Shown here piece after piece: positions 13,565 through 62,509 of a DNA stretch of 64,000 nt. Where the stretch lies: assembly GCA_021773095.1 (NCBI GenBank), contig JAJFKR010000041.1:1-64000 (forward strand), written 5' to 3'. The stretch is from Woeseiaceae bacterium. Its GTDB lineage: Bacteria; Pseudomonadota; Gammaproteobacteria; Steroidobacterales; Woeseiaceae. The position numbers were made by a program, and so were the translations under genes. Every line of letters starts with the position of its first letter. The stretch's first letter is position 1. The notes under the pieces are model-generated. The model worked only from the letters and a program-made list of their open reading frames with translations. It was not told the origin of the DNA and made no database searches.

Positions 13565-13568
13565 CCTC

Positions 13569-19384: not shown

Positions 19385-19388
19385 TGAC

Positions 19389-20525: not shown

Positions 20526-20544
20526 AACGAATTGGATTATGCCT

Positions 20545-26479: not shown

Positions 26480-26492
26480 GTGGGACCGGGCA

Positions 26493-27841: not shown

Positions 27842-27904
27842 AATATGTTAATCTTAGCCTAATCAAGATGATGCGCTGTTTGTGTGGCGGATCGAGGCAA
27901 CCTG

Positions 27905-28660: not shown

Positions 28661-28667
28661 GGCAACG

Positions 28668-35255: not shown

Positions 35256-35276
35256 CTACAATCGAAGAATCCTCTT

Positions 35277-35876: not shown

Positions 35877-35926
35877 GTGCACGAGCGTCATAACTACAGT
35901 CAGGACAACTGACCAGGGGACATCAA

Positions 35927-40437: not shown

Positions 40438-40483
40438 CGGCCTGTATTTTCAGTAATTGAAAAGAACCTGCATCATTGTTGGC

Positions 40484-41923: not shown

Positions 41924-41925
41924 GC

Positions 41926-44080: not shown

Positions 44081-44332
44081 TTAGCCGCCGGCTATCGGAG
44101 GGAAAAAAATTACTTCATCATCATCTTTTACGGGGTGATCGCGCTCTACGTATTCTTGATTCACTGCTACTTTGACAACTTCAATAAATTCGAATGCACG
44201 TTCATGTTGTTGCCCGCGGCGCGATAGCCATTCGAGCAGCATACCGACATTCGCCACGTTGGCAGGAAGGGTGACAACTTCCTCGTCAATCCCGACCTCA
44301 TCTTTAATCCACGCAGTATAGGTAATCTTCAT
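44081..44332 (-). CDS. MoaD/ThiS-family sulphur carrier
   Basis: An 83-residue ubiquitin-fold protein ending in the essential Gly-Gly (...FFPPIAGG). This fits MoaD, the small subunit of molybdopterin synthase. It is the last gene of a minus-strand operon that includes a three-subunit molybdenum hydroxylase, 18 bases after the HCDH-ECH gene. A dedicated sulphur carrier for cofactor supply is plausible; ThiS or another sulphur-transfer role is not excluded. Confidence 0.82.
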   Translation of the reverse strand: MKITYTAWIKDEVGIDEEVVTLPANVANVGMLLEWLSRRGQQHERAFEFIEVVKVAVNQEYVERDHPVKDDDEVIFFPPIAGG

Positions 44333-44350
44333 TTGTACCCGCGTCCTGGT

Positions 44351-46363
44351 TTATCCAGTTTTGCCGAAATCAGGTTGGCGGCGTTGCTGGAAGGACTCGA
44401 TTCCTTCCCGGGCCGCTGCAGTGCATGCGCTCTTGCCGAAGGCAAGATATCCAACTTCCAGTGCCGCCTCCAACGAGGGCGACAGTGCAGCTTCCGTGAC
44501 GGCGTTCTCTGTGATGCTTATGACTGTCGAACTGAGGACTTGACCGTCGGTCGTCATGGGTTGCATCGGCTTAAAAGAGGGAATCGTCACTGACTCATCT
44601 GCGATCTTTACGGTGCGGCCCTGCATTGAATCGACCTTTTGGACTGCCCGTGTTATCAAATCCGCATAGTCGTCTGCCAGTTCATCGATGATATTCAGCT
44701 TACTGGCCGTTTCTGCATCAAGCTTTCTCCCTGATCGCAACATGTCGTGGAATGTCAGTGCAGCATCGGGCCAGCGCCGATAAGGTATTACCATACCGCC
44801 GATGCCCGGAACTATGCCCAGGGTTATCTCGGGGAGCTGCAGCCACGCCGCATGAACAGCGACAATGCCATGGCAACGGAATGCCAGCTCGAGACCACCA
44901 CCCAGCGCCATACCGTTCACTGCCGCAACGACCGGTTTCGTCATGCCATCGATGTGCCGTAGCAGACGGGAGGAATCGCGTGCGTACTGGGCGGCCGCAT
45001 CGGCATCACCCAGGTATTCGGGAAAACGGCCGATGTCCGCACCGGCACAAAATGCCCGGTTGCCGTAGCCGGTCAATACAAAGCCTTTTACTTGCGGGTC
45101 ATCTTCGTATCGCCGGATGACGCTGAATATTTCATCGTTCAGTTCATCATCCAGAGCATTGAGTGCCTCCGGCCTGCGAATGGTGATCACCTTAACGCCG
45201 TCCACGTCATCAACGAGCAGGTACTGATGAAAATCGTAATAGCGGGCGATATCCTGTCCGGGTAACGGCATGCCCGGCCGTTCATTCTGCAATCGCTGCA
45301 TAATTCGGGTCACTTCGGCTTCACCCAGTTCGCGCATGAGTTTCAATGGGCCCTTTCTGAAGGCGAAGGCCAGGCGGCAGCCTAATTCAAGATCGGCTGA
45401 AGTACCGATGGATCGGTCAACGATGTCCACTGTTTGGGAGAAAACAATCCCGAGCAGGCGATCGCGAATACGGTCCGCCTTTTCCGGGGGGACCGCTATC
45501 GGCTCACCGCGGGGCACAGTATTCCAGGTTTTGACTGAGCCAAAATAGGGGGCAGGCCGGTAATGATCACCTTCTTCATTCGCCTGCATTGTGTTGACCT
45601 CGGGAATGATTTCGTTGCCGTTGGCGAAGTTGAGTACGTCAAACGGACCGGCATGGACGTAGTCCAGAGCAATGCTGTCGATCTCGCGCGCCGATGCGTC
45701 TGTTATCAGATAAGCGGCTTCGTTACACCAGTTGTCGAAAATGCGGTCCAGCATGAAGCAGACAACATCAGTCGTGACCATGGGCACTTTACCCGTAGCA
45801 CAGAAAAACCAGCGTAAGTATTCAAGGGCTGCGGCGCTGCCGCCTGGCCAGTCGACAACCTCCACTACCGGGTTGCTGAAGGCGGGGGCAAAAAAGTGTG
45901 TGACAGTGCACCTCTCCGGATGCCGAAGCTCTGAGAAGAGCCATGCGGCCGGAATTGCACTGGTATTGGAGCTTATGAGGGCATCCTTGCTCACGACGGA
46001 TTCGACCTGGGCAAAAATCTTGTGTTTGAGATCCAGGTTCTCTGTTGCAGCCTCGATGACCCAGTCACAATCCGCGAGCATCGAGTAATCCGTACTCACT
46101 GTGAGGTTTTGCATGACTCCTGCTGCCTGTTGCGCTGTCAGCTTGCCACGTTTCACACCCTTGTCTGCATAAGCCTCGATACGTCGGATTGCCTTGTCCA
46201 GCTGATCGTCCACTATATCGATCAGGACCAGCGACAAACCCGGAATTGCACTTTTCAAGTAATAAGCAATGTCCGGTCCAATGGTGCCGGCACCGATAAC
46301 GCCGATCTTGTCGGGCAGTGGTTTCGAGGGTGCGCCGATCAGTGGGTTGTTGCAGTCATTCAT
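44351..46363 (-). CDS. 3-Hydroxyacyl-CoA dehydrogenase/enoyl-CoA hydratase fusion
   Basis: The 670-residue protein has the dehydrogenase first ([17 protein letters not shown] near residue 22, [15 protein letters not shown] near 166) and the crotonase domain second ([14 protein letters not shown] near 430, [20 protein letters not shown] near 475). This is the reverse of FadB and matches the order in archaeal and some beta-oxidation fusions. It would hydrate and oxidise 2-aminocinnamoyl-CoA to the 3-oxo compound for thiolysis to 2-aminobenzoyl-CoA. It overlaps the CoA-transferase stop by 4 bases. Confidence 0.88.
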
Positions 46364-47556
46364 GTCGAAATAACACCTGCGTTTTCTAGCTCTGTCAGTT
46401 GTTGCGTCCCGAACCCGGCTTCGGCAAGAATGCTGTGCGTATGCTCGCCGTATTTTGGTGGGAAGGAGAGTCGGGTTGTCGCACCCGCGTCATCCACCGG
46501 CATGGGTTGCATATGAACAAGCTTGCCGTCGGGTGTCTGGGTTGTAGTGAGTTTGTCACGTAATGCCTTGAGGTCACGAACTTCCGATACTGTGTTGATG
46601 ACGGCATGTGCGATCGTGGCTTGTTCAAAAAAACGGACTAGTTCTGCGGTGTTGGTCCTGGCGGTAACAGCACCGATATCCTGATAGATCTGCTGTAGCT
46701 CCTGCATCCGGCCTTTGTTGGTAGCGCGTTGTTCTGCTGCGATTCGCCGGAAGGCCGGGATCTCAGTCAGGCGCTGCCATTGCAGGTCATTACCGATTGC
46801 CACATAAATATAACCATCCTTTGTCTTATAGACATTGGAGGGTACGAATTTGCGATGTTCGTTCCCGGCACGGGTAATCTCTGATGGGTCGCAATCAAAA
46901 TCAATCAATGGCAGTGTTGTGATCAGCCAGGACGCGGCAATCTGCAGCATCGATACGTGGATCGCCTTGCCGGCACCACTGTCCGAGCGTTGCAGGAGGG
47001 CAAGGCATACGCCAGCGAAAACCTCATCACCGGCTTTCAGATCAATGACCGGCACTCCGGTCAGGGTGGGCATGCCATCTTTGTCACCCGTGAGTTCCAT
47101 AAAACCTGACATGGCCTGTATGGCCGGATCATAGCCGGGGACATTTGGATAGTCGGGCCCCATGGCTGATATTCCGGCCCAGATAATATCGGGTTTGATT
47201 GACTTCAGCGTGTCGTAGTCGATTCCCAGGGGTTGATAGCGGCCCGGCATCGTGTTGCAGCAAAAAACATCGACATCCAGTTCGCGAATGATTTGGTGGA
47301 GCGCGGCCTGTCCCTGTGGCTCTTTCAGGTTCAGGGTGATGCACTCTTTGCCGGCATTTGGCGCAATGAAATAACTGTGCCGATCTTCATCAACGACCTT
47401 GCTGCCAATGTACCGGTTGGGATCGCCCGGGAGGCCCTTGCCGCTGGGAGTAGCCTCGATCCGGATTACGCGCCAGCCCAGCTGGGCAAAGCGTACTGTT
47501 GCAGATGGCAGCGACAGTGCCTGCTCCATCGACAATACTGTGAATTTCTTCGTCAA
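46360..47556 (-). CDS. iaaL: Family III CoA-transferase (arylsuccinyl-CoA transferase, IaaL-like)
   Basis: A 398-residue CaiB/BaiF protein with [20 protein letters not shown] at the start, the probable catalytic aspartate in [19 protein letters not shown] near residue 143, and the [17 protein letters not shown] motif. In the known indoleacetate pathway, a phenylsuccinyl-CoA transferase activates (2-aminophenyl)succinate. The mutase, dehydrogenase and hydantoinase-type genes beside it match that pathway. The assignment to IaaL is by context, so confidence in the symbol is lower than in the family. Confidence 0.78.
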
Positions 47557-49910
47557 CTGACTGCAGCAGTGGCCATCGAGTCTGACGAACTGACGTCAGC
47601 TTGCTGTGCCAGTATGAGTGCCCGGACCACTTTTTCGGGCGACAGTGGTGTACTCAGAATGCGAACTCCCGTCGCATTGTAAAAAGCGTTGGCAATTGCC
47701 GGTGCGATGACAATGGTTGGCAACTCAGCAGCTCCTTTGGCGCCGTAAGGTCCTTCGGCACAGCCATCTTCGATGAAGTGCAAATCAAGCTCGGGCATTT
47801 CCGGTGCGGTAATGACCTTGTAATCCCGGAAGCACGGGTTCTTCAACATACCGTCTTCGAGTTGCATGTCTTCAGTGAGCGCGTAGCCCAGACCTATGGC
47901 GATACCGCCCTCAGTCTGTCCTTCGAGGCCTGCACGACTGATTACCCTGCCGACATCCTGTGCGGATGTAATTTTGTCGACTTTGATTTCACCGGTCCAG
48001 GTATCGACGGTAATTTCGGCGATGTGAACCGCATGGGAATAGGCTGCCGACATATTCGATATGTGGTCCGCCCCTTCCGGTTCGCTGTTGGGTTCATAAT
48101 AGTCTGTCACCATGACCAGTTCAGGCTCCGGCTGGAAATGCATCTGGCGCAGCAATTTTTCCAGTTTGATTACGATCGAGCCTTCTTTGTCCCGCACGAC
48201 AAAACCGTCACGAAGATCAAGTTCATCTGCCGAAATCTCAGCAAACGTCGATGCAGCATTCAGAATCTGCTGCCTGGCTTTCACTGCTGCGCGACGGGCG
48301 CCTTCGCCGGCGATGAATGTCGTGCGTGATGCGTGCACACCGACGTCCCAGGGGGCCAGGTCTGAGTCGTTGTTCATGAGCGTGACATGCTCAACCGGTA
48401 TACCCAGCTCTTCAGCAACGATCAGGCTGATGACAGTATCGATGCCCTGGCCGATTTCGGATGCGCCGGTGATCAGAGTCGCGCGTGCATAGTCATCGAC
48501 TTTCAGCATCGTCCCGCAGCCGTCCGACTTGTGGATCTTGGCACCGCCGGCGTTATGGATTGACGAAGCGATGCCAATACCCTTTTTGTAACGGCTGTCT
48601 GAGTTTCGCAAAAGCCCGTATTCTTTTTGTCGGGTGACGAAATCAGTGGCATCGGCTGCTGTCGTGAGACATTTGTCCAGTGCACATTCCCGGAGAAAGG
48701 CTTGCTGCGGTGTGCGCTCACCGGGTTTCTGAGCATTCATCAGACGAAATTCTATCGGATCCATGTCCAGTTGCTCGGCCAGCATGTCTATCTGCTGGGC
48801 TGTGGCAAAAGTTGTCTGGACGTTGCCGTAGCCGCGGAACGATCCTGCGTAGGGATTGTTGGTGTAGATCGCCTGGGCGTTGTACGCGATAACCGGGACC
48901 CGGTAGTGACCGGAAACGGTTCGCATCATGACCACAGGAATGGTCGGCCCCCACGATGTGTACGCGCCGTTATCAAGCAGCACATCGGCACTGCGAAACG
49001 TCAGCGTGCCATCTTTTTTGCAACCGGTGCGCATATGGATGACGGCGGGTTGGCGAGTGGGGGCGCTCTTGAATTCTTCTTCACGCGTATACAGGACTTT
49101 CACGGGGCGGCCGGTCTTTTTTGCCAGAAGTGCCGCGATGGGTTCGTATGGATACACGTCCAGTTTGGAGCCAAACGCACCACCAACCGGTGGCTGTATC
49201 ACCCTGATATCGCCAGGGTGCATGCCGAGAGCAGGTGCTAAATCCATTTTGTAGTTGTAGGGGTACTGTGTTTGCGAATAGATGGTCAGTTTGCCGTTGT
49301 TGTCGAAATCGGCAATTGCACAAGACGTTCCCATACAGCAATGTGTGACGTGATGAACCTTGAAGACATTATCAACGATAATGTCCGACTCGGCTTCAGC
49401 TGCCGTCAGGTCCCCATGTTCAAATGCAAAATGCAGACTTTTGTTTCCGGGGAAATCACCCCGGATCAAAGGCGCATCTTCCCTGCGACCGTCTTCCGGC
49501 GAAAACACACCAGGCAAGTCTTTGTATTCGACCTTTATCAGACCCAGTGCCTGACTGGCTATCTCTTCGGTTTCTGCGGCTACCGCCGCGACCTCGTCAT
49601 GTTCGCAACGAACCGTTTCTTTCAGGGCGACATTGTCGCGCACAAAACCGAATTTAAGACCCGCAACATCCTTGCCGGTCAAGACGCCGTGAACTCCCGG
49701 CAGTTGTTCTGCCGCCGTTGTATCGATGCTTACGATCTGTGCGTGCGGCCGGCCGGCGTGCAGTATCTTGCCGTACAACATCTGCGGTAGTACAAGATCG
49801 TTTATGTAGCGCGTCTTGCCCGTGGACTTGTCGGCAGCATCCGGCTTTCTTACGCGCTGTCCGATCAGCGTCGTTTTTTCGATGTGTGTGGCGATCGTCT
49901 TCTTGTTCAT
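47553..49910 (-). CDS. Molybdenum hydroxylase large (Mo) subunit, xanthine dehydrogenase family
   Basis: A 785-residue large subunit with [21 protein letters not shown] at the start, the [22 protein letters not shown] motif, [17 protein letters not shown], and the catalytic glutamate in [12 protein letters not shown] near residue 740. The ATG at 49910 is taken; an upstream TTG at 49940 would overlap the 2Fe-2S gene. In the iaa-type pathway such an enzyme would hydroxylate the indole ring at C2 to give oxindole-acetate. Other N-heterocycle or aryl-CoA substrates are possible. Confidence 0.85.
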
Positions 49911-49920
49911 GGTCTGTGTT

Positions 49921-50397
49921 TTACTCGCGGGATTCGACAACGGAAGTTATTGCGTCCAGCACCTTGGTATAACCGGTGCAACGGCAGATATTCCCCTCAA
50001 GCCCGCGGCGTATCCGGGCCCGATCCAAATCGGGATTGTTTTCTACGAGGTAATCCGCCTGCATGATCATGCCCGGTATGCAAAAACCGCATTGAATGGC
50101 GCCGTGATCAACAAAAGCCTGTTGCAAGGGATGTAGTGTTTCTCCGCTTTTCAGTCCTTCGATAGTCACGACTTCACGTCCGTCGCAATCTACGGCATAC
50201 ATCAGACAGCTGTTAATGGTTTTGCCATCCAGCCTGATCGTACAGGCGCCGCATTCACCTTCACCGCAGGCATATTTCGTTCCTGTCAGATCGAGTTCAT
50301 CACGTAACATCGTCAGGGTGTTCATCGTCACGGGCACGGTTACCGTGACTGGCTGCCCATTCAGCTTAAAGTTAATTTGTGTTTTCAAGGACATCAT
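49921..50397 (-). CDS. Molybdenum hydroxylase 2x[2Fe-2S] subunit
   Basis: A 158-residue subunit with the plant-type cluster motif YACGEGECGACTIRLDG...NSC near residue 42 and the second cluster motif IQCGFCIPGMIM...GNICRCTGYT. It connects the molybdenum site with FAD. Its start (ATG ATG at 50392-50397) lies inside the end of the FAD-subunit gene, a 26-base overlap. It is cytoplasmic, without export signal. Confidence 0.93.
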   Translation of the reverse strand: MMSLKTQINFKLNGQPVTVTVPVTMNTLTMLRDELDLTGTKYACGEGECGACTIRLDGKTINSCLMYAVDCDGREVVTIEGLKSGETLHPLQQAFVDHGAIQCGFCIPGMIMQADYLVENNPDLDRARIRRGLEGNICRCTGYTKVLDAITSVVESRE

Positions 50398-51244
50398 TCA
50401 GTACTTCTTTGGTTAATACACGAACAAGGTGATCGCGATACCAGGAGCTGGCACGAACATCATCAATCGGGGTGGCGTCTTCACCGGCACTCACACTGGC
50501 GGCCCTAATATTGTCAGCATTCAGGGGCAGTCCTTCCAGCGTGGTCTCGACGCGACGGGCACGTATCGGTGTCGGAGCTACCGCTCCCATGGCCGCCCGA
50601 ACATCACTGAACACACCATCTTCCAGCACGCCGCCGATGCCGATGGAAACGGTTGCTATCTCCAGGGCGGGACGCGGCCCGGGCTTGCAAAAGTGAGCGA
50701 CGAAACCGGGTGGAGGCTTGTCGAAGAGGACCGCCGCAAACAACTCGTTGTTCTGCCTGACAGTCTTGCCGGGCGCCTTGAAGAATTCGTGCAGGGAAAT
50801 GAGCCGGGTCTGGATGGCGCCATCCTGCCAGCTGGCCAGTTCGACAACAGCATTCAACAGCAACAACGGGATGATCATATCCCCGGCGGGGGATGCATTA
50901 CAGATATTGCCACCGATCGAAGCGGCGTTACGGAGCTGGTCACTGGCAAACTGGTCGGCCGCTGCAACGAGTACCGGGGCGACTTCATCAAGCAGTTGAC
51001 TCGTCAGTATTTCGGACACGGTCGTTAGTGCCCCGATCCTGCAGGTGTCGCCTGTTAATGTAATTTCCGCAAGGCCTTCAATACGTCGAATATTCATCAG
51101 GGTGCTGGCGTATTCTCTCTGCCCGGCCTCCATTTGCGGCATCAGGTCAGTGCCGCCACACAGGACCGTCACATCACCGTCCGCCAACGCCCTGACGGCG
51201 TCATCCAGGCTGCAGGGTGAGAGGTAGTTTGTAATTTCCGACAT
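50372..51244 (-). CDS. Molybdenum hydroxylase FAD-binding subunit
   Basis: The 290-residue FAD subunit (CoxM type) has LCGGTDLMPQMEAGQ near residue 29 and ASIGGNICNASPAGDMIIPLLLL near 109. It lacks the inserted four-cysteine loop that binds the extra 4Fe-4S cluster in 4-hydroxybenzoyl-CoA reductase, so it is a hydroxylase-type rather than a reductive enzyme. It follows the mutase gene by 13 bases. Confidence 0.9.
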   Translation of the reverse strand: MSEITNYLSPCSLDDAVRALADGDVTVLCGGTDLMPQMEAGQREYASTLMNIRRIEGLAEITLTGDTCRIGALTTVSEILTSQLLDEVAPVLVAAADQFASDQLRNAASIGGNICNASPAGDMIIPLLLLNAVVELASWQDGAIQTRLISLHEFFKAPGKTVRQNNELFAAVLFDKPPPGFVAHFCKPGPRPALEIATVSIGIGGVLEDGVFSDVRAAMGAVAPTPIRARRVETTLEGLPLNADNIRAASVSAGEDATPIDDVRASSWYRDHLVRVLTKEVLNDVLENTN

Positions 51245-51257
51245 CGTGTAGTCTCAA

Positions 51258-52871
51258 TCAGAAGCGGATCGGTTCCTGGTAGTGTCCGAATACTTCAGTC
51301 AGTTTGTTAGTGATTTCGCCAACCGTGGCATAGGCTTTGACAGCCTCCATGATGGCCGGCATGACATTTGTCCCTGATTCCGCGTCGTCTTTAATTTTCG
51401 CCAGCGCTCGGTCCACTTCTGCCTGGTCGCGATTAGCCTTAATCGCATTCGTGGCATCGATCTGCTTCTGCGCCGCTACCTCGTCGTAGGGATGGTATTG
51501 TGGTTCGTGCTCCTCTTTCTCGTCCATCTCGTAGCAATTCACGCCTACCTTGTGGATTTCTCCTGACAATATCTTTCTCTGTGTGTCGTAGGCACCAGCA
51601 GACACTCTGGATTGGATGACGCCTTCAGACACCTGTTTGACAATGCCGCCCTGGGCATCAACCTCGGCCATGATTTGCTCCATCCGCTCTCGCATCTGGT
51701 TGGTCAGGGTCTCGACGTAATAGGAGCCGGCCAGCGGGTCGACCGTGTCGCACAGGCCCGACTCTTCGGCAAGAAGTTGCATGGTCCTCAAGGACAGGCG
51801 TTGCGCAAACTCGGAAGGGATGGTGTAGGCCTCGTCGTAGCAGCACAAAGCCATTGTCTGGGCACCGCCAAGCGCGCCGATCAGTGCGTAGTAGGCGCCG
51901 CGCATAATGTTGACCTCGGGTTGTTCGGCATACAGTCCGTTGCCGCCGCCGCCGGCGATCATGCGTAACCACATTGAACGAGGATTTTTCGCGCCGTACT
52001 CTTCTTTCATGATTTTGGCCCAGAGGCCACGGCCCGCTCTGAACTTCGCAACCTGTTCGAAGATATTGCCGTAGATATTGAAGTTAAAAGACAAGCGTCC
52101 GGCAAATTCGTCGATATCCAGTCCGCGTTCCAGTGCGCCGTCTGTGTACGCTTTCGCAATACAAAAAGCGTAGGCCATCTCTTCCGCCGGATCGGCACCT
52201 GATTCACGGATGTGGTAACCACACACACTCACCGGAGTGTACTTGGGCGCGTGGTTTGCACAGTATTCGATCGTATCGCAGACGAGTTTCACGGAGGGTT
52301 CCACTGGAAAAATCCAGGTACCCCGACCGATAAATTCCTTCAATATGTCGTTCTGCGCGGTGCCCCTCAGTTTGCTGATGTCGTAACCGCTTTTTTCGGC
52401 CATCGCCAGATACATGGCGATAAGGACAGCTGCCGCGCCGTTGATGGTAAGCGATACCGTAATCTCTTCGAGATCGATGCCATCAAAAGCAATTTCGAAG
52501 TCCTGCAACGTATCCACCGCCATGCCAACCCGGCCAATCTCACCAACCGCCATCGGATCATCGGTATCCAGTCCGATCTGCGTCGGCAGGTCGAAGGCGA
52601 CGTTCAGCCCGGTCTGCCCGTTGGCTATAAGATATTTGAAGCGTTCGTTGGTCTTCTTCGCATTGGCAAACCCTGTGTACTGACGCATGGTCCAGGGACG
52701 CTTACGGTACATTTCCGGGTGAATGCCGCGCGTGAACGGATACTCCCCCGGATTACCCACCATCTCGATGCCGCCGGAATTATCCACATCTTCTGCTGTG
52801 TAAAGAGTCTTAACTTCTATCCCGGACTCGTTAATGACTGGTTTTGATCCAGAGTCACGCTCGGTGGTCAT
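51258..52871 (-). CDS. B12-dependent acyl-CoA mutase large subunit (arylsuccinyl-CoA mutase-like)
   Basis: A 537-residue methylmalonyl-CoA-mutase-family catalytic subunit without a B12 domain: YPFTRGIHPEMYRKRPWTMR near residue 45, NDILKEFIGRGTWIFP near 175 and CGYHIRESGADPAEE near 210. The start at 52871 overlaps the B12 subunit stop (ATGA); a longer frame exists but runs through that gene. Residues in the first motif differ from methylmalonyl-CoA mutase (RGPYATMY type). In the iaa pathway the IaaGH mutase turns (2-aminophenyl)succinyl-CoA into (2-aminobenzyl)malonyl-CoA. Isobutyryl- or 2-hydroxyisobutyryl-CoA mutase are alternatives. Confidence 0.85.
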   Translation of the reverse strand: MTTERDSGSKPVINESGIEVKTLYTAEDVDNSGGIEMVGNPGEYPFTRGIHPEMYRKRPWTMRQYTGFANAKKTNERFKYLIANGQTGLNVAFDLPTQIGLDTDDPMAVGEIGRVGMAVDTLQDFEIAFDGIDLEEITVSLTINGAAAVLIAMYLAMAEKSGYDISKLRGTAQNDILKEFIGRGTWIFPVEPSVKLVCDTIEYCANHAPKYTPVSVCGYHIRESGADPAEEMAYAFCIAKAYTDGALERGLDIDEFAGRLSFNFNIYGNIFEQVAKFRAGRGLWAKIMKEEYGAKNPRSMWLRMIAGGGGNGLYAEQPEVNIMRGAYYALIGALGGAQTMALCCYDEAYTIPSEFAQRLSLRTMQLLAEESGLCDTVDPLAGSYYVETLTNQMRERMEQIMAEVDAQGGIVKQVSEGVIQSRVSAGAYDTQRKILSGEIHKVGVNCYEMDEKEEHEPQYHPYDEVAAQKQIDATNAIKANRDQAEVDRALAKIKDDAESGTNVMPAIMEAVKAYATVGEITNKLTEVFGHYQEPIRF

Positions 52872-53260
52872 GTCACGTTCTCTTTGATGAAGTGGGTAAT
52901 TTCTTCGAATTGCGATCCTGTGGGGAAGATCCCATGCAGGCCAATCTTCTGTAGCTCGGCAGCATCCCGCTTGGGAATATTGCCGCCAATGATCCAAAGC
53001 TTGCCCGTCAGCCTGTTTTCTTCCAAGAGTTCCCTGAGGCGCCTGCAAAACTGCATGTGTGACCCGGCCATGCTCGATAGTCCGATCACGTCGACATCTT
53101 CCTCCAGCGCTATCCTGGCGACCGCTTCCGGAGATTGGCGCAGGCCCGAATAAATGACCTCGAATCCGGCATCCATCAGTGCCCGAACGACAACCTTTGC
53201 CCCCTGGTCGTGGCCATCCAGGCCCGGCTTTGCGACCAGTACTCTGATCCTGGATTTCAC
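52868..53260 (-). CDS. B12-binding small subunit of acyl-CoA mutase
   Basis: The 130-residue protein has the base-off cobalamin motif KPGLDGHDQGAKVV (D15, H17, G20), then VIGLSSMAGSHMQF and LWIIGGNIPKRD. The start is a GTG at 53260 whose last bases overlap the TGA of the dehydrogenase gene; longer frames run into that gene. It works with the catalytic subunit encoded directly downstream. Separate B12 subunits are typical of HcmB/IcmB-type enzymes. Confidence 0.92.
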   Translation of the reverse strand: MKSRIRVLVAKPGLDGHDQGAKVVVRALMDAGFEVIYSGLRQSPEAVARIALEEDVDVIGLSSMAGSHMQFCRRLRELLEENRLTGKLWIIGGNIPKRDAAELQKIGLHGIFPTGSQFEEITHFIKENVT

Positions 53261-54390
53261 GACAAAAGTCCCTTGGCAATGACAAGTTTCAGTATCTCGC
53301 TGGTACCGCCGCCGATCAGCGTGAAGCGGATGTCGCGGAGATATCGCTGCACCGGGTATTCCATGGCAAACCCGTAGGACGCAAACACTCTGGCCGCCTG
53401 GTCGCAAACAGTCAGTGCGGTTTCGCTGGCAAACAACTTGCACATTGCGGATTGCTGAAGATGTGGCTTGCCGTTGTCTGCCAGCCAGGCCGTGTAATGT
53501 ACAAAGTGCTCTGCCACTTCGAGTTCCGTGGCCATTTCTGCGAGCTTCAGCTTAATGGCCTGAAAAGCGCCGATGGGTTTGCCGAACTGCTGGCGCTCGC
53601 CCGCATAACGCACCGCCTCTTGCAGTGCGGCCCTGGCACAACCGATCGCCAATGCAGCGGTGATGATGCGGACTTCACCCAACAACTCGCGAAGATGTGA
53701 CTCACCGTCACCCTCTTCCTTACTGAGACGGCAGTCATCCGGTACGAAGCAGCCGTCAAAAGCAAGCTCCGAGGTTGGGAAGGCACGCACGCCCATCTTG
53801 TCGATAGGTTTTCCCACATGAAGACCGTCATTACTTTTCTCAACGAGGAATATGGTCAGCTTCTTGTCTTCACCGGCTTTGGCAAAGACTGTAAAAAAAT
53901 CAGCCAGCGGAGCCTGGCTGATCCAGGTTTTTTGTCCATTCAAGACGTAGCCACCCTCAACCTTATCGGCCTGCGTACGCATTCCGTTGAGGTCACTGCC
54001 AGCATTCGGTTCGGTCATGCAGATGGCACCGATTTTCTCGCCGGCGATCGCCGGCAGCAGCAATCGTTCGTGAATATCCTCGTTTCCCAGCAGGTGCAGG
54101 AATTTCGTGCCCATCAGGGACTGCATGGAGGCGGCACCAGCCAGAGCCAGTGAACCGCGTGCCAGTTCGGTCAGGGCCAGGCAATAAGTGAGCAAATCAT
54201 GATTCGAGCCACCCGCATCTTCCGGGTAACGCATGCCGAAAAAGCCCAATTTGCCCACTTCCCGGAACAATGCGATCGGGAACTCATGTGTTTCATCAAA
54301 GGCGGCCGCTTGCGGGGCGATCTCTTCGTCGCTGAAGCGCGCGAAGGTATCGCGGATTAGAACCTGTTCGTCTGTTAGCTCGAAATCCAT
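53257..54390 (-). CDS. iaaF: Acyl-CoA dehydrogenase, benzylmalonyl-CoA dehydrogenase-like (IaaF)
   Basis: A 377-residue acyl-CoA dehydrogenase with ICMTEPNAGSDLNGM near residue 123 and WISQAPLADFF. The usual catalytic glutamate before GT is absent: RFTLIGGGTSEI places G361 there. A candidate base E239 (LLGEVRII) sits near the helix-G position used by isovaleryl-CoA dehydrogenase. In the iaa pathway, IaaF oxidatively decarboxylates (2-aminobenzyl)malonyl-CoA, where a base may be unnecessary because loss of CO2 provides the carbanion. The gene lies between the hydantoinase-type and B12 subunit genes. Confidence 0.78.
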   Translation of the reverse strand: MDFELTDEQVLIRDTFARFSDEEIAPQAAAFDETHEFPIALFREVGKLGFFGMRYPEDAGGSNHDLLTYCLALTELARGSLALAGAASMQSLMGTKFLHLLGNEDIHERLLLPAIAGEKIGAICMTEPNAGSDLNGMRTQADKVEGGYVLNGQKTWISQAPLADFFTVFAKAGEDKKLTIFLVEKSNDGLHVGKPIDKMGVRAFPTSELAFDGCFVPDDCRLSKEEGDGESHLRELLGEVRIITAALAIGCARAALQEAVRYAGERQQFGKPIGAFQAIKLKLAEMATELEVAEHFVHYTAWLADNGKPHLQQSAMCKLFASETALTVCDQAARVFASYGFAMEYPVQRYLRDIRFTLIGGGTSEILKLVIAKGLLS

Positions 54391-54395
54391 GGCAG

Positions 54396-56078
54396 TCAGC
54401 CTGACGGATCGTAGTTGTAGATAGATTTCGCAGCGTCTTTGGAAATAACACCATCGCGCACTTCCTGCCCGAGCGTGTCACGGTCCCGCTGTCGTGGATC
54501 ACCGTAACCACCACCACCACCGGCGATCTGATAATACACGGTGTTTCTGGGGACACCTGTTATCAGGTCTTTGTTGCGCGGAATGACCTCTTTACCGTCC
54601 GGGTAGGTCAGTTTGATCATATTCAGGCCCGCATCCTGCCCACCGAAAAGACCGAAAGCAGGTCGGAAATCACCATCACCGAATGTGACCAGTTGAGTAT
54701 CTTCCGAACCCAGCCGGTAAACGGTTTCCGTGCCGAGACCGCCGCGCCATCGTCCTGCTCCGGCGGAATCTGTCAGGAATTCGTGTTTGATCAGTGTGTG
54801 AGGTGTTTGTTGTTCGAACATTTCGTAATCCTGATCGAGCACGCCACCTGACGCGTCGATCATGCCGATATGGTCATAGCCATCCGTACCTTGCATGCCA
54901 CCCGATCCGCCCTTCAGGCCCATAAAGAAGATATCGACAAAGTCTTCACCTTTATCCGGGTCGGTGCCGGTTGTCAGTGAACTGAGCAGGTGATTCCAGC
55001 CCGCCGTAATCCGATCCGGTATGACGGGGCCGAGGGCGCGAATAATGGCGTCGGCATTGGGCGGGCAAAGGTGATTGCCAAAGGTAGTTGCCTTCGGATA
55101 GGACGCATTCAGAATTGTGCCCTCCGGAATAATAATGTCGATGGGTTGCACCATCCCTTCGTTGTGCGGGATATCGGGGTTAACCATTTGCAGAAACGTA
55201 AGAATGGTTGCGGACGCACTCGAGGTAAAAGTGCCGTTGACGAAACCGTTGGTCTGCTCATCGGTATCGCTGTAATCAAAGCTAATGTGCCGGTCTTCAA
55301 TCCTGATCCTGACCCGGATCGTAAACGTACTTCCCTCGTGGCGCCCGTCATAATAGACGAAGCCCTCACCTTCATATTCGCCATTGGGCATTTTGCTGAT
55401 TTCCGATTCCATCATCTTGCGCGTGGCATCGAATAACGCAACTTTGTGGGTTTCAAAGCTCTCGAACCCGTATTTCTCCAGTAGCTTCTGCATGCGGCGT
55501 TCGCCGACAGTGCAGGCACCCATCTGCGCGCGCATATCGTGTTGCACTATGTCAAAGCGAATGTTGGCGAAGATCAGATCCCACACATCTTTTCGCAGCT
55601 TGCCGCGATCGTAGACTTTTACCGGAGGAATCCGCAGGCCTTCCTGCCAGACTTCCACGGCATTGGGGTTGTAGCCGCCAGCCACAGCACCGCCGATGTC
55701 GGCCTGGTGGCCCTTCGCGGCCGACCAGGCAACCAGTTTGCCCGCGAAGAAAATAGGCTGAAAGACGGCGACATCATTGTTCTGGTTTCCCATGGAGAAA
55801 ACGTCGTTGTGAAAGATCACGTCGCCTTCATTGATATCGCCGTCGAAAAACTCAGTGATGTATTTGCAGACCGGCGCCAGGGAGAATGCGAGGATGGGAA
55901 GATTCTCCATCTGCTCAAGCATGTTGCCATCGGCATCATAAAGACCAGTGACGAAGTCCTTAGCCTCACAAAGAATCGGCGACCGTGCTGTCTGTTGAAT
56001 GGACATGCTCATTTCATCGGCGATGGACTTGAACGTGCGGGCATAGACCGACAGCAGGATAGGATCCACACTACTCAT
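54396..56078 (-). CDS. Hydantoinase B/oxoprolinase-type subunit (oxindole-acetate hydrolase candidate)
   Basis: The 560-residue protein is a HyuB-family subunit: VDPILLSVYARTFKSIADEM at the start, GDVIFHNDVFSMGNQNNDVA near residue 95, and a glycine-rich end GGGGGYGDPRQRD. HyuA/HyuB pairs hydrolyse cyclic amides with ATP. In the indoleacetate pathway a HyuAB-like enzyme is proposed to open the lactam ring of oxindole-3-acetate. Acetophenone carboxylase subunits are relatives, but the extra small subunits of that enzyme are missing here. It overlaps the HyuA stop by 4 bases. Confidence 0.87.
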   Translation of the reverse strand: MSSVDPILLSVYARTFKSIADEMSMSIQQTARSPILCEAKDFVTGLYDADGNMLEQMENLPILAFSLAPVCKYITEFFDGDINEGDVIFHNDVFSMGNQNNDVAVFQPIFFAGKLVAWSAAKGHQADIGGAVAGGYNPNAVEVWQEGLRIPPVKVYDRGKLRKDVWDLIFANIRFDIVQHDMRAQMGACTVGERRMQKLLEKYGFESFETHKVALFDATRKMMESEISKMPNGEYEGEGFVYYDGRHEGSTFTIRVRIRIEDRHISFDYSDTDEQTNGFVNGTFTSSASATILTFLQMVNPDIPHNEGMVQPIDIIIPEGTILNASYPKATTFGNHLCPPNADAIIRALGPVIPDRITAGWNHLLSSLTTGTDPDKGEDFVDIFFMGLKGGSGGMQGTDGYDHIGMIDASGGVLDQDYEMFEQQTPHTLIKHEFLTDSAGAGRWRGGLGTETVYRLGSEDTQLVTFGDGDFRPAFGLFGGQDAGLNMIKLTYPDGKEVIPRNKDLITGVPRNTVYYQIAGGGGGYGDPRQRDRDTLGQEVRDGVISKDAAKSIYNYDPSG

Positions 56079-58192
56079 GGCTGTACCCCCTTAAGGGCAT
56101 TGGCGACAAGATCTTCACGGCCCTTTTTATACAAGGCGAAGGAACCGAATTCATCCACCAGGCAATCGAAGGATTCGTCCACGAAAATAGCCGTCGTGAC
56201 CTGTTCAATTATTGCGGGACCAGCCACCTGGTTGCCGTAGCGCATTTTGTGACCATCATAAACCGGCACGGTCAAAAATGATTTTTCGGTAGGGATATAC
56301 GCCGGACGTTCACCTTTTAGCGCATTGGATGGGTCCATACCGGCAAACGGCTCTTTCCTGAACACAGGTTTTTCCGTGACCCCCAATGCCTGGACACGCA
56401 CATTGATGATTTCAATAGGAGCGGCCTGGTCTTTGAGCGAATAACCATACAGACGGTTGTGCTCGTCATGAAAAATATCAGCAATAGAATTCATATCCCG
56501 TGCCTCGAGTGCAGCCTGCGGTACTACAAATGAGACTTCGTGATACTGCTTCAGATAACGGCAATCCAGTTTGATCCGGTAGTCCTGTCGCTCTTCCGGT
56601 ATCTGCTCCTCTTCAAGCAAACGCTTGCCATCCTGAGTCATGCCAGCGGTCAGAGCATCGAGTTCGTGCCAATCGATATGCTCCAGATGGGTAACAAAAG
56701 TGCGCACGAAATCGTGTTGCATATTGGCCATCAGCATACCGACCGCACAAAGTATGGAAGATTCTCGCGGCACGATTTGAAAAGGGATTTCCAGTTCTTC
56801 ACAAATCGAGCAGGAGTGCAGAGGGCCTGCGCCACCAGCAACGACCAAAGGAAATTCTCGCGGATCGAAGCCGCGCTTGATGGTGATTTCCCTCACCCCC
56901 TGCGCCATGTTATTGCACGACACGCGGTACATGCCGGCTGCCGCTTCCTCTATATTCATATTAAGCGGCTTCGCAATATGTTCCTCGATGGCATGTCTTG
57001 CGGCATCCATATCGAGTTCCATTTTGCCTCCGGCAAAAAAGTCAGGGTTCAGATACCCGAGTACGAGGTTGGCATCGGTGCAGGTGGGTAACTCCCCGCC
57101 TTTTCGATAGCTCGCGGGCCCGGGATCGGCCCCCGCGCTTTGCGGTCCCATCCGCAACAAGCCACCGTCATCGATCCAGCCAATCGAGCCACCGCCGGCG
57201 CCAATAGTGTGAATTCCCAGCATAGGCAGGGCAATGCGATGACGGTCAATCGTACCTTCATTGACCACTACGGGAGTTCCGACGACGAGGGCGGCCTCGA
57301 AACTCGTGCCTCCCATATCGATCACGATGCAATTGTCCTGTTTGTGCGCGCGGGCATAAGACTGGCCGGCAGCAGGGCCGGCGGCCGGGCCTGAAAGAAG
57401 TGTCAATGCGGCACTTTCCCGAGCCACAACCGGCGACATCACGCCACCGTTTGATTGCATGATGAGAAGAATGCCGTCAAAGCCGATCCCGCCAAGCTTA
57501 TCGATTAGCTGATCGAGGTAATGGCTCAGAATGGGGCCGATATAGGTATTGAGAGCCGTCGTGCTGACGCGTTCGTAAAACCGGATTGAGGGAAGCAAGC
57601 TGCTCGATACTGTCAGGTAGGCATCTGGCAGGAGTTTTCGCACCAATTGTGCAGCGACCTGTTCGTGTTCATGATTTGCAAACGCATTCATGAAACAGAT
57701 GGCAACCGCTTCAACACCTTCTTTTTTGAATAATTCGATTGCTCCTTCTATTTCAGCCAGGGACAGGGGCGTGGTCTCCTTGCCGTTCCGATCGATACGG
57801 CCTTCAACTCCCTGGCGCAGGTAACGCGGCACCAGCGGTTTAACATTTGTGTAGCGGTTGTTGTATTGCTCTTCACGGATGCCGCGGCGCATCTCCAGGG
57901 CGTCGCGCATTCCCTTGGTGGTTAGCAGGCCCGCCCTGGCACCGGCGCGCGTTAGCGTGGCATTTGTAGTGACGGTAGTGCCGTGCACAATGGTTTCGAT
58001 AGTGCCAGCGAATTCCTCGACACTCATGGGTGGATCCAATGATGCCGCAATTTCGCTCAAGCCATTGATGACCGCAATCGAGGGATCGGCGGGTGTCGAT
58101 AATACCTTGAAGATCTCAGGGTCACGATCGTCCCAGGCAACCAGAAAATCAGTGAACGTTCCACCAACATCGATACCGATCTTCAATCCCAT
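56075..58192 (-). CDS. Hydantoinase A-type ATP-dependent subunit
   Basis: A 705-residue HyuA-family subunit with the ASKHA phosphate motif GIDVGGTFTDFLVAWDD at the N-terminus, VHGTTVTTNATLTRAGA near residue 88 and the second motif DMGGTSFEAALVVG near 295. It activates the lactam oxygen with ATP for its HyuB partner. It heads the eleven-gene minus-strand operon ending with moaD. The ATG at 58192 is 107 bases from the divergent MarR start. Confidence 0.88.
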   Translation of the reverse strand: MGLKIGIDVGGTFTDFLVAWDDRDPEIFKVLSTPADPSIAVINGLSEIAASLDPPMSVEEFAGTIETIVHGTTVTTNATLTRAGARAGLLTTKGMRDALEMRRGIREEQYNNRYTNVKPLVPRYLRQGVEGRIDRNGKETTPLSLAEIEGAIELFKKEGVEAVAICFMNAFANHEHEQVAAQLVRKLLPDAYLTVSSSLLPSIRFYERVSTTALNTYIGPILSHYLDQLIDKLGGIGFDGILLIMQSNGGVMSPVVARESAALTLLSGPAAGPAAGQSYARAHKQDNCIVIDMGGTSFEAALVVGTPVVVNEGTIDRHRIALPMLGIHTIGAGGGSIGWIDDGGLLRMGPQSAGADPGPASYRKGGELPTCTDANLVLGYLNPDFFAGGKMELDMDAARHAIEEHIAKPLNMNIEEAAAGMYRVSCNNMAQGVREITIKRGFDPREFPLVVAGGAGPLHSCSICEELEIPFQIVPRESSILCAVGMLMANMQHDFVRTFVTHLEHIDWHELDALTAGMTQDGKRLLEEEQIPEERQDYRIKLDCRYLKQYHEVSFVVPQAALEARDMNSIADIFHDEHNRLYGYSLKDQAAPIEIINVRVQALGVTEKPVFRKEPFAGMDPSNALKGERPAYIPTEKSFLTVPVYDGHKMRYGNQVAGPAIIEQVTTAIFVDESFDCLVDEFGSFALYKKGREDLVANALKGVQP

Positions 58193-58216
58193 TGCACTTC
58201 CACCTCACCGCGATCG

Positions 58217-58251
58217 TTGCACAAAATTATATGAATAATCATAATATGATT
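58217..58251. promoter_or_regulatory. Promoter with overlapping palindromic MarR operator
   Basis: On the plus strand TTGCAC (58217-58222), 17 bases, then CATAAT (58240-58245) fits a sigma-70 promoter for marR and the thiolase. The perfect 15-bp inverted repeat AATCATA-A-TATGATT (58237-58251) covers the -10. On the minus strand a perfect TATAAT (58231-58226) could serve the hydantoinase operon. One bound MarR dimer could shut both directions. Confidence 0.6.
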
Positions 58252-58299
58252 TTGAATAGTGTATACTCTCAAACGCCTGTATTCAATGAACACAACGCC

Positions 58300-58818
58300 A
58301 TGACGAGGTATTTTATCGACGACTATCTTGCGTACTTGCTCGCTCAGGCGAGTCAGGCCGTAAGCAACGAGTTTCGCTCCTGCCTGGCGGCAGCGGATGT
58401 ATCGGTCATCGAATGGAGAGTGCTCTCGACCTTGTCTGATCATCCGCAGATTTCGGTCGGGCAATTATCGGAAATCGTCATGTGCAAGCAGCCCACGCTG
58501 TCACGGGCGATCGATCGAATGGAAGCAAAAGGCTGGATTACTCGCTCACTGAGTCGCCAGGACAGGAGAATGATCGCTGTTACCATTGACAAGCCCGGGG
58601 TGCAGCTCACCAGACCCTTGCTGGTCAAGGCGAAGGAGTTGGAAGAATCCGAGCTAAAAGGGTTTAGCAAAAAAGAAATTCAAACCTTGAAAAAAATACT
58701 CCGGGACCTGGTTGATCATTGTTCAAACAGGAATGTGCAGGACAGCAGTAGTGAGGAGGATCAGGCGCTCACTCGAGTGGTTGCAAATTATCGATCGGCA
58801 ACGAAGCAGAGATCATAA
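58300..58818 (+). CDS. MarR-family regulator of the indoleacetate-type operon
   Basis: The 172-residue protein has the MarR winged helix: SVIEWRVLSTLSDHPQISVG, then LSEIVMCKQPTLSRAIDRME and the wing LSRQDRRMIAVTI. The ATG at 58300 is preferred since the domain starts there; frames extend to 58192. It is 2 bases from the thiolase gene and divergent from the hydantoinase operon. IaaR-type MarR repressors respond to pathway CoA thioesters in auxin degraders, a likely parallel here. Confidence 0.9.
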   Translation: MTRYFIDDYLAYLLAQASQAVSNEFRSCLAAADVSVIEWRVLSTLSDHPQISVGQLSEIVMCKQPTLSRAIDRMEAKGWITRSLSRQDRRMIAVTIDKPGVQLTRPLLVKAKELEESELKGFSKKEIQTLKKILRDLVDHCSNRNVQDSSSEEDQALTRVVANYRSATKQRS

Positions 58819-58820
58819 GC

Positions 58821-60026
58821 ATGGCGTTCAAAGCAGAAATTCCATATGGCAATTACTGGAGCACGCCATTTGCAAAATGGCAAGGAAGCCTGGCCAGCCT
58901 GCACAGCGTGAAATTTGCAGCTCACGTTGCTACTCACGAACTGGGAAAACGCGATATTCCCGTTGAAACATTTGACTTTGGCGTGCTCGGAATCACGACT
59001 CCACAGCAGCACTCGTTTTATGGTTCGCCCTGGCTAATGGGTATGTTAGGTGCTGGCAACGTTGGTGGGCCAACGGTCAGTCAGGCTTGCGCGACCAGCG
59101 TTCGTAGCATGCTTGCGGCCGTACAGGAGATCGAAACCGACATGGCCACCTGTGCATTGGCAATATGCTGTGACCGGACGTCGAACGGCCCACACATCTA
59201 TTATCCGGCCCCGAATGGCATCGGTGGCACTGGCGATTCGGAAAATTGCGTACTTGATAACATGATGACGGATCCATTGGGAAATCACTCAATGATTCAA
59301 ACCGCCGAAAACGTCGCCGCACGTTATCAATTATCAACCGAACAGCAGCATGAGCTGGTGTTGCGGCGTGAGGAGCAGTATCAGGACGCGCTGGCTGACC
59401 AATGCGCTTTCCAGAAAAGATACATGACACTCCCGTTCGATGTACCGAATGCAAAGTTTCGCAAAACAGTAGCGACACTGCATGGGGATGAAGGAATTGC
59501 CGCGTCCACAGCAGAAGGACTGGCGAATCTCAAGCCGGTACTGGACGGTGGAACAGTGACATACGGCGCCCAGACACACCCGGCTGATGGTAATGCAGGG
59601 ATGATTTTTGCAACGCCTGAAAAAGCGGCCGACCTAAGTACCGATCCGAAAATTGCGGTGCGCATTCTTGGCTTCGGACTTGCACGGGCCGAGCTCGCCT
59701 ACATGCCCGAGGCACCGGTCCCGGCAGCAGAGAAGGCGCTGCAGCAAGCAGCAATGACCATACAACAGGTGGATGCCGTCAAGACTCACAATCCATTCGT
59801 TGCCAATGACCTGGTATTCGCCAGGGCGACCGGAGCGGATGTAACGAAAATGAATAATTACGGTTGCTCACTGGTTTGGGGTCACCCGAATGCCCCGACG
59901 GGCCTGCGTTCCAGTATCGAGTTAATCGAGGAGTTGGTCGTGCGTGGCGGTGGCGTGGGATTGTTTACCGGCTGCGCTGCGGGGGACACGGCGATGGCCG
60001 TGTTACTCGAAGTGGGTGATCGCTGA
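58821..60026 (+). CDS. Thiolase-family protein with altered active site
   Basis: A 401-residue thiolase homologue. The nucleophile C90 is present (SQACATSV) and H355 lies in GHPNAPTG. The second catalytic cysteine position of the normal CxGGGxG motif reads FTGCAAGD, with phenylalanine at the usual place and C385 three residues on. THNPFVAND replaces the usual NEAF motif and resembles SCP2-like thiolases. It would cleave 3-oxo-3-(2-aminophenyl)propionyl-CoA to 2-aminobenzoyl-CoA and acetyl-CoA. It is co-transcribed with marR. Confidence 0.8.
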   Translation: MAFKAEIPYGNYWSTPFAKWQGSLASLHSVKFAAHVATHELGKRDIPVETFDFGVLGITTPQQHSFYGSPWLMGMLGAGNVGGPTVSQACATSVRSMLAAVQEIETDMATCALAICCDRTSNGPHIYYPAPNGIGGTGDSENCVLDNMMTDPLGNHSMIQTAENVAARYQLSTEQQHELVLRREEQYQDALADQCAFQKRYMTLPFDVPNAKFRKTVATLHGDEGIAASTAEGLANLKPVLDGGTVTYGAQTHPADGNAGMIFATPEKAADLSTDPKIAVRILGFGLARAELAYMPEAPVPAAEKALQQAAMTIQQVDAVKTHNPFVANDLVFARATGADVTKMNNYGCSLVWGHPNAPTGLRSSIELIEELVVRGGGVGLFTGCAAGDTAMAVLLEVGDR

Positions 60027-62457: not shown

Positions 62458-62509
62458 AGTGCTCCCCGGGCTGGCAGCCATCTGCTGTCATCGCATACGC
62501 GATGGCTGA

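Follow-up and report, generated by a model that had tools for sequence, protein, structure and literature searches.

Gene content and organization of the locus

The window analyzed here is a stretch of 64,000 nucleotides at the start of contig JAJFKR010000041.1 of a Woeseiaceae bacterium (assembly GCA_021773095.1), and the system in question is a cluster of iaa-type genes, predicted to degrade indoleacetate, that occupies positions 44081 to 60026. When the window proteins were scanned with Pfam and NCBIfam profiles, all the genes listed for this region by an initial annotation were recovered in place with profile support (Table 1): the three subunits of a molybdenum (Mo) hydroxylase, the HyuA/HyuB pair, a family III CoA-transferase, the B12-dependent mutase, an acyl-CoA dehydrogenase, a 3-hydroxyacyl-CoA dehydrogenase/enoyl-CoA hydratase (HCDH-ECH) fusion, MoaD, and a divergent MarR followed by a thiolase. 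Together with the ligase gene lying just beyond the thiolase, the set reproduces the gene content, and for the most part the gene order, of the iaa locus of Aromatoleum evansii KB740, with identities of 54-77% to the first of its two copies. The iaa route to 2-aminobenzoyl-CoA is placed in A. evansii KB740 and A. aromaticum EbN1 by an excerpt of PMC9613470, and compared with these Aromatoleum operons, which hold the same enzymes in largely the same order, the window differs in that its ligase converges on the thiolase, its thiolase follows the divergent MarR, its HCDH-ECH fusion and MoaD close the operon on the 3' side and its Mo subunit is of a second type.

The identification of the region as an iaa-type indoleacetate operon, possessing the full enzyme set once the ligase is counted, is thus strongly supported by sequence comparison, and the earlier description of the operon as complete needs a small correction: the remaining enzymes do lie within 44081-60026, but the ligase required for the first step is located immediately outside. 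Activation of indoleacetate to indoleacetyl-CoA is the step ascribed to IaaB in the available portion of PMC8360864, and it is the window ligase that completes the set. When the A. evansii iaa-locus ligase was compared with this genome, the window ligase was the best of seven matches (54%, 593 bits; the next match scored 276). The same portion of PMC8360864 names an indoleacetate-binding protein, IaaM, and the regulators iaaQ/iaaR. The HyuA-like subunit matches the caprolactamase alpha model at 669 bits, under the cut-off of 1000. The divergent MarR gene is more likely to start at ATG 58300 than at TTG 58192, where its open reading frame (ORF) begins.

Inspection of the mutase region required a revision of gene limits. 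The listed ORF (51258-53285, 675 residues) is too long: the Pfam match does not cover its first 138 codons, and over these a different frame encodes a B12-binding subunit of some 130 residues, which carries DGHDQG, a motif we take to be the mark of such subunits. ATG 52871 is the start of the large subunit and overlaps the stop codon of the small subunit, the GTG start of which (53260) overlaps in turn the stop of the dehydrogenase gene. Reading the N-terminal extension as a fused B12 domain was accordingly rejected, since this extension is an out-of-frame reading of the small-subunit gene; the two-subunit mutase of the initial annotation is confirmed, with separate B12-binding and large subunits read in overlapping frames.

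Table 1. Features of the window. Identities given for the iaa proteins are to the first A. evansii KB740 copy; scores are in bits.
Feature	Position	Strand	Basis
MoaD, final operon gene	44081..44332	-	TIGR01682 73.9, cut-off 66.15
HCDH-ECH fusion	44351..46363	-	PF02737 + PF00378; 61% over full length
Family III CoA-transferase (IaaL counterpart)	46360..47556	-	PF02515; 63%, same operon position
Mo hydroxylase, Mo subunit, rarer iaa type	47553..49940	-	MoCoBD_1/2; 54%
Mo hydroxylase, 2Fe-2S subunit	49921..50397	-	PF01799/PF00111; 61%
Mo hydroxylase, FAD subunit	50372..51244	-	XdhB-type model 210, under cut-off 310; 54%
Mutase large subunit (phenylsuccinyl-CoA/benzylmalonyl-CoA mutase counterpart)	51258..52871	-	PF01642 644; 75%
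B12-binding small mutase subunit (IaaGH)	52868..53260	-	DGHDQG motif; 68%
IaaF-type acyl-CoA dehydrogenase (decarboxylating benzylmalonyl-CoA dehydrogenase counterpart)	53257..54390	-	Acyl-CoA dehydrogenase domains; GGG; 73%
HyuB-like subunit of same lactamase	54396..56078	-	PF02538 480; 77%
HyuA-like lactamase subunit (IaaCE large subunit counterpart)	56075..58192	-	PF01968/PF05378; 70%
Candidate MarR operator, 7-bp arms, AATCATAATATGATT	58237..58251		Inverted repeat in divergent gap
MarR, divergent from iaa operon	58300..58818 (ORF from TTG 58192)	+	PF01047; start by inspection
Thiolase, predicted to release 2-aminobenzoyl-CoA and acetyl-CoA	58821..60026	+	PF00108/PF02803; 68% to iaa thiolase
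Indoleacetate-CoA ligase (IaaB) counterpart	60050..61597	-	AMP-binding; 54% to iaa ligase
Short-chain dehydrogenase (SDR), ACMR cassette	27884..28660	+	58% to both A. evansii cassettes
Enoyl-CoA hydratase (ECH), ACMR cassette	28602..29474	+	NF006107 482, cut-off 330; 60-64% to A. evansii
Acyl-CoA dehydrogenase (YEG), ACMR cassette	29478..30620	+	58-59% to A. evansii
RidA-type imine/enamine deaminase	30631..31020	+	PF01042 70.5, cut-off 27.3; 52% to RidA by both A. evansii ACMR genes
MarR of ACMR cassette	31026..31490	-	46-47% to MarR in both A. evansii cassettes
Palindrome at ACMR-side MarR, CCATAAAAGATTTATGG	31495-31511		Inspection of divergent gap
4HBT-type thioesterase	31561..32292	+	PF13279
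ACMR-like flavoenzyme: FAD monooxygenase fused to old yellow enzyme-type reductase	32344..34725	+	PF01494 + PF00724; 50-51% to both A. evansii copies
MauE	34719..35255	+	PF07291 96.5; 7-base overlap with ACMR stop codon
MauD	35277..35876	+	TIGR02661 218, cut-off 188.6
Aldehyde dehydrogenase	17966..19384	+	StyD-type models among best, below cut-offs
Aromatic amine dehydrogenase (AADH) alpha	19326..20525	+	PF06433; PDB: AADH 194 vs methylamine dehydrogenase 124
AADH beta (tryptophan tryptophylquinone, TTQ)	20458..21063	+	PF02975; PDB: AADH 165 vs methylamine dehydrogenase 149

Relatives of the iaa mutase and dehydrogenase

Relatives of the mutase were collected by scanning one genome per species; the best 80 of 91 were kept as loci, in which gene order was derived with tblastn. 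Most loci with a mutase at 58-84% identity bear further iaa genes wherever the contig is long enough, and they include both copies of A. evansii KB740, A. toluclasticum, A. buckelii and A. tolulyticum. At the lower end of this range, in the locus L065 (58%), nothing accompanies the mutase except its small subunit and a weak match to the transferase. Loci with mutases at 44-50% present no further iaa genes beyond the small subunit and weak matches such as those of L082, L086 and L087 (dehydrogenase 37-38%, Mo subunit 29-30%). The recurrence of the iaa genes in nearly the same order in other genomes, with the window mutase in their clade, argues against a chance assembly.

The maximum-likelihood tree of mutases (85 rows, built with a quick method and supported by the Shimodaira-Hasegawa-like approximate likelihood ratio test, SH-aLRT, only, with no bootstrap) omits seven refetched copies and the loci with matches shorter than 450 residues. 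It places the window mutase inside a 57-row clade of iaa-operon mutases (SH-aLRT 100), of which L065 is the outermost row, and sets the 2-hydroxyisobutyryl-CoA mutase (HCM) chain 4r3u apart in a clade of its own with three loci, L006-L008 (SH-aLRT 100), although several outgroup rows stand on long branches and make the deep branching unsure. The initial annotation had named grouping of the mutase, transferase and dehydrogenase with enzymes for non-aryl substrates, 2-hydroxyisobutyryl-CoA for example, as the result that would speak against it; the mutase groups with those of iaa operons and away from HCM, and the dehydrogenase carries the motif typical of IaaF. IaaF oxidizes and decarboxylates benzylmalonyl-CoA, and its whole subclass has GGG in place of YEG (PMC8360864, in part). 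In an alignment of 71 dehydrogenases (the best match per locus, of at least 300 residues) GGG is present in 62 rows, comprising the iaa dehydrogenase of the window, its two refetched copies and 59 others that represent 52 distinct loci, so that no other locus with a close dehydrogenase lacks the motif. The nine remaining rows are other dehydrogenases, six with YEG, among them that of the ACMR cassette of the window, and three with GEG. The A. evansii-like gene set, the mutase clade and the GGG motif all support the iaa-type identification.

The mutase was found at E<=1e-180 in only one of 107 genomes sampled from the family of the window, that of the window itself, which suggests that the iaa operon was gained horizontally. 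Among plasmid records, 384 match the mutase at E<=1e-100 and none at 60% identity or more, and a plasmid location for iaa genes was therefore rejected.

Among 47 long matches to the Mo subunit (some of them refetched), 41 show 51-66% identity and six 76-79% (L021, L030, L037, L042, L044 and L063, which include A. buckelii and Rubrivivax); a further Mo subunit, that of L027, reached 78% in a separate comparison. The moaD gene, which stands at the operon end in the window, directly follows the Mo subunit in five of the six close loci (L030, L037, L042, L044 and L063), the sequence of the sixth, L021, ending inside the gene. No moaD match was obtained in the other 41 rows at E<=1e-8, a limit that a diverged 83-residue protein could escape. 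A. buckelii has the Mo type of the window, whereas its sister in the mutase tree, A. anaerobium, has the common type, and the Mo subunit thus appears to be swapped together with moaD, as a unit, between iaa loci.

An ACMR-like oxygenase cassette and its association with iaa genes

Some 16.5 kb from the mutase, the window contains a second cassette (Table 1) built around a fused flavin monooxygenase/reductase resembling 2-aminobenzoyl-CoA monooxygenase/reductase (ACMR). The aerobic ACMR/2-aminobenzoate cassette of A. evansii shares with it the ACMR-like fusion, SDR, ECH, dehydrogenase, RidA and MarR; in comparison, the window enzyme has about 50% identity, the cassette lacks an adjoining ligase of the A. 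evansii type and MauE/MauD lie behind it. Imines and enamines are the substrates of RidA proteins. The ACMR product is 2-amino-5-oxocyclohex-1-ene-1-carbonyl-CoA (excerpt of PMC4539516). This product being an enamine, the presence of RidA favors a nitrogen-bearing substrate over salicylyl-CoA, the compound named in the title of the NCBIfam model NF006101, and argues for such a substrate in the window ACMR-like enzyme. A metallo-hydrolase-fold protein accompanies MauE and MauD directly behind the ACMR-like gene (34719-36889), and the end of the unit is occupied by a FAD-dependent aromatic hydroxylase of PRK08132 type (36902-38593, above cut-off).

The pairing of ACMR-like and iaa genes was examined in 34 of the 80 loci, chosen by hand as having several iaa genes each and representing 33 genomes; ACMR genes were counted at E<=1e-200 and full length. 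A full-length ACMR-like gene occurs in 27 of these 33 genomes, two of the 27 genes carrying an in-frame stop; one more genome has the gene in two pieces and five are without it. By comparison, only 16 of 369 genomes sampled from the class of the window, and scored less deeply, have ACMR, a contrast that supports the pairing. In 150 genomes of the A. evansii family, in which the iaa mutase was scored at E<=1e-220 and one iaa genome with a frameshifted mutase (G504) consequently counts as negative, the mutase is found in 17, ACMR in 38 and both in 13, so that ACMR is present in 13/17 iaa-positive genomes against 25/133 of the others (Fisher p 3.3e-6, uncorrected for kinship).

The two systems are also physically close in several genomes. 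At both iaa copies of A. evansii, ACMR adjoins together with SDR, ECH, dehydrogenase, RidA and MarR, and the two genes stand about 14 kb apart there, as also in A. toluvorans; the spacing is 12 kb in G551 and 17 kb in BP5.bin88. It falls to about 10 kb in Paramagnetospirillum caucaseum and Phaeospirillum GS7, where ACMR lies 1.85 kb from the iaa thiolase, and rises to some 62 kb in A. buckelii and A. anaerobium, 55 kb in G602, 105 kb in G639 and more than 750 kb in G514 and G576; in the remaining genomes the genes are on separate contigs. In the mapped linkage loci, the best matches to the MarR on the iaa side of the window likewise lie near ACMR genes, in A. evansii (40%) and A. toluvorans (36%). 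The iaa-ACMR pairing is therefore common and often close, yet not fixed, and it is not special to this genome, given that A. evansii presents it at both iaa copies.

A predicted anaerobic exit and respiratory capacity

The contig extends to position 99,432, and past the right end of the window, at 65281-71079, it carries oah together with bcrC, bcrB, bcrA and bcrD, each above its curated cut-off. Behind these come had and a Mo subunit that resembles 4-hydroxybenzoyl-CoA reductase but scores below cut-off (whole region 65281-78331), and a 2-oxoacid:ferredoxin oxidoreductase is encoded at the right edge of the window. In A. evansii, anthranilate is converted anaerobically through 2-aminobenzoyl-CoA to benzoyl-CoA, according to the excerpt of PMC4539516. 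With bcrCBAD just past the window, two exits are a better reading than the single aerobic exit proposed initially: the suggestion that the iaa product feeds the ACMR-like enzyme gains from co-occurrence and linkage in other genomes, but the oxygenase would not be its sole outlet. Aerobic respiration is possible, CcoN, a cbb3 oxidase subunit, being above cut-off in the genome, which also has two CtaD-type subunits whose translated excerpts score below the cut-off.

Genes of the box type also occur in the window. A benzoate-CoA ligase family protein, BoxB and BoxC are encoded at 38866-43608, all above curated cut-offs, and a BoxR-type regulator (HTH plus shikimate-kinase-like domain; 61552-62481, above cut-off) lies between the iaa ligase and the 2-oxoacid:ferredoxin oxidoreductase. 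No boxA was recognized among the scanned ORFs, in which no search aimed at it was made.

Proposed route and alternative explanations

On the basis of the combined analyses, we consider it probable that the iaa operon converts indoleacetate into 2-aminobenzoyl-CoA without an oxygenase and that two exits for this product, ACMR-like and bcr, are encoded on the same contig. We infer the substrates, the reactions, the direction of flux and the regulation by MarR from sequence. The ligase would convert indoleacetate to indoleacetyl-CoA, the Mo hydroxylase would place an oxygen atom from water onto C2 and the HyuAB lactamase would open the pyrrole ring at the expense of ATP. The CoA-transferase would then shift CoA within (2-aminophenyl)succinyl-CoA, the B12 mutase would rearrange the latter to (2-aminobenzyl)malonyl-CoA and the GGG-type dehydrogenase would oxidize and decarboxylate this intermediate, leaving the HCDH-ECH fusion and the thiolase to release acetyl-CoA and 2-aminobenzoyl-CoA. 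Under oxic conditions the ACMR-like enzyme would dearomatize the ring, RidA deaminate the resulting enamine and the SDR, ECH and dehydrogenase open and degrade the ring, and under anoxic conditions the amino group may be removed reductively and/or the ring attacked by benzoyl-CoA reductase (bcrCBAD).

A number of observations weigh against this route or against parts of it. Among solved structures HCM gives the mutase its best match, at 504 bits, with human methylmalonyl-CoA mutase (MCM) reaching 411, from which it might be supposed that the enzyme is a 2-hydroxyisobutyryl-CoA mutase in an operon for branched-chain or fuel-ether metabolism. The chance of this is negligible, and the candidate was rejected on the basis of the tree, in which HCM and its three companion loci form a fully supported clade outside that of the iaa mutases, and of the substrate pocket, in which the window mutase has Tyr65, Ala92 and Arg183, as in MCM, and differs at all three positions from the Ile, Asp and Gln of HCM; its neighbors, moreover, are iaa genes. 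Among 88 mutase rows, some of which are one gene fetched twice, Tyr/Ala/Arg is found in 81, some of which have 44-50% identity and fall outside the iaa clade, Ile/Asp/Gln in three and Phe/Ala/Gln in four. The pocket Arg presumably holds the substrate carboxylate. The set speaks against HCM, yet does not separate benzylmalonyl- from methylmalonyl-CoA. The same chemistry could also serve another indole or aryl side-chain acid, such as indolepropionate or a halogenated indoleacetate, which would be in line with a Mo subunit, predicted to make the first attack on the ring, that is further from the A. evansii type (54%) than from the second type (76-79%). We regard this as improbable, as the other iaa proteins retain 54-77% identity to those of A. 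evansii and A. buckelii has the same Mo type within an otherwise ordinary iaa operon.

The evidence against coupling between iaa and ACMR is more substantial. The ACMR-like gene and the 3' end of the iaa operon are on opposite strands and 9.4 kb apart, with MauE/MauD and box genes in between, and the two units have separate MarR proteins and unlike palindromes; a single operator shared by both MarR units was rejected, since AATCATAATATGATT differs from CCATAAAAGATTTATGG and has no more matches in the window than expected by chance. The initial description of the operon as joined to the oxygenase goes too far in view of this layout and of two regulators with different candidate operators. The window enzyme, moreover, misses the NF006101 cut-off (1033.4 against 1078, where A. 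evansii ACMR scores 1386.5 and that of L097 1163.2), and for this reason it is called only ACMR-like here. In an unrooted tree it stands on a long branch beside the ACMRs of five other iaa-positive genomes (95/98), a tree in which every non-plasmid relative comes from an iaa-positive genome and which is hence no test of coupling; the closest relative found (71%) belongs to G192, a genome without the iaa mutase. ACMR-like genes also occur on 95 plasmid records, none of which has a mutase at 60% identity or more, which implies that the cassette can stand without an iaa operon nearby and that its use is not confined to indoleacetate. Of the 16 ACMR-positive genomes in the class sample, two (G000 and G120) are themselves iaa-positive and 14 lack an iaa-type mutase. 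The control is uneven: all first-look candidates were scored in the hand-chosen set as against at most two per genome in this sample and at most six in the family sample, so that background ACMR counts may be too low, and the taxonomic make-up of the class sample is unlike that of the hand-chosen set. For the anoxic exit, PF06050 was found in 33 of 35 iaa-positive genomes, a family that is broader than benzoyl-CoA reductase and that the E. coli control also matches; narG was not found above cut-off in this 89%-complete genome, leaving denitrification unsupported.

These data could be accommodated if the ACMR cassette were an independent module for anthranilate or another aryl-CoA, residing in the same island and receiving no carbon from indoleacetate. 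The ACMR-positive genomes of the class sample that lack an iaa-type mutase, the separation of the two units and of their regulators and the plasmid cassettes, for which the plasmids alone were viewed, are all in favor of it. Of the four annotated plasmid cassettes, those of Phyllobacterium, Thalassospira and Paracoccus comprise SDR, MarR, ECH and dehydrogenase, RidA and a thioesterase are present in the Paracoccus and Roseivivax cassettes, and two of the four have an AMP-binding protein alongside. Against such independence stand the strong co-occurrence of iaa and ACMR, their repeated close linkage and the lack of a ligase of the A. evansii cassette type adjoining the window cassette, the nearest being PaaK and the box-side benzoate-CoA ligase, and we therefore deem an independent module unlikely, albeit clearly more plausible than a different side-chain acid. 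Coupling of iaa and ACMR, as the preferred reading, is supported in a general form, being neither exclusive nor new to this genome.

With a full-length gene for a predicted oxygen-dependent exit in 27 of the 33 hand-chosen iaa carriers, it seems reasonable to postulate that iaa genes may also remove auxin in oxic or fluctuating habitats. Research on auxin-degrading plant bacteria focuses on the aerobic iac and iad loci, and the excerpt of PMC9613470 sets the iaa route aside as anaerobic. According to the same excerpt, the iac and iad loci share the starting compound and control by MarR, and iad ends at anthranilic acid; unlike the window, they begin with an oxygen-dependent attack on the indole ring (IacA, IadDE). 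Neither IacA nor IadDE was recognized among the window proteins scanned, no search aimed at them having been made. The interest of the system lies in the wide iaa-ACMR pairing and in a possible link to amines.

Amine dehydrogenase genes and the wider island

To the left of both cassettes, an aldehyde dehydrogenase gene precedes those of the two AADH subunits, behind which two small proteins are encoded that each contain a single CXXCH (17966-22006). The alignment of the beta subunit retains most of the Cys columns and the Trp residues that we take to form TTQ. As in known AADH systems, alpha and beta are best matched by AADH and MauE/MauD are present, but here the structural genes lie more than 13 kb from MauE/MauD, in an island with iaa, phenylacetyl-CoA/phenylglyoxylate oxidation-like (pad-like) and box genes. 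No match to the AADH subunits, MauE or MauD was obtained at E<=1e-10 in 141 loci (1.87 Mb, many of them short). AADH oxidizes tryptamine and phenethylamine, and the presence of AADH and aldehyde dehydrogenase in the island, with MauE/MauD directly behind the ACMR-like gene, suggests an upper pathway from tryptamine to indoleacetate.

The island also encodes a PaaK phenylacetate-CoA ligase (26307-27794, above cut-off) and the pad-like genes (7190-14444, below cut-offs), and a phenylacetate route that needs no oxygen, alongside the box route that does, is possible. Taken with the substrates of AADH, these genes point to amines as the source of both indoleacetate and phenylacetate. Tentatively, and with somewhat less than even confidence, the island may be viewed as a chain in which tryptamine and phenethylamine yield indoleacetate and phenylacetate through AADH and the aldehyde dehydrogenase, two oxygen-free upper branches (iaa and pad-like) process them and two lower branches, one with oxygen (ACMR/box) and one without (bcr), complete their breakdown, MauE/MauD tying amine oxidation to the degradation of 2-aminobenzoyl-CoA. 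If so, a single bacterium would both produce auxin and consume it, in one catabolic chain that spans oxic and anoxic conditions. A group II intron reverse transcriptase/maturase (896-2308, above cut-off) is encoded close to the left contig end.

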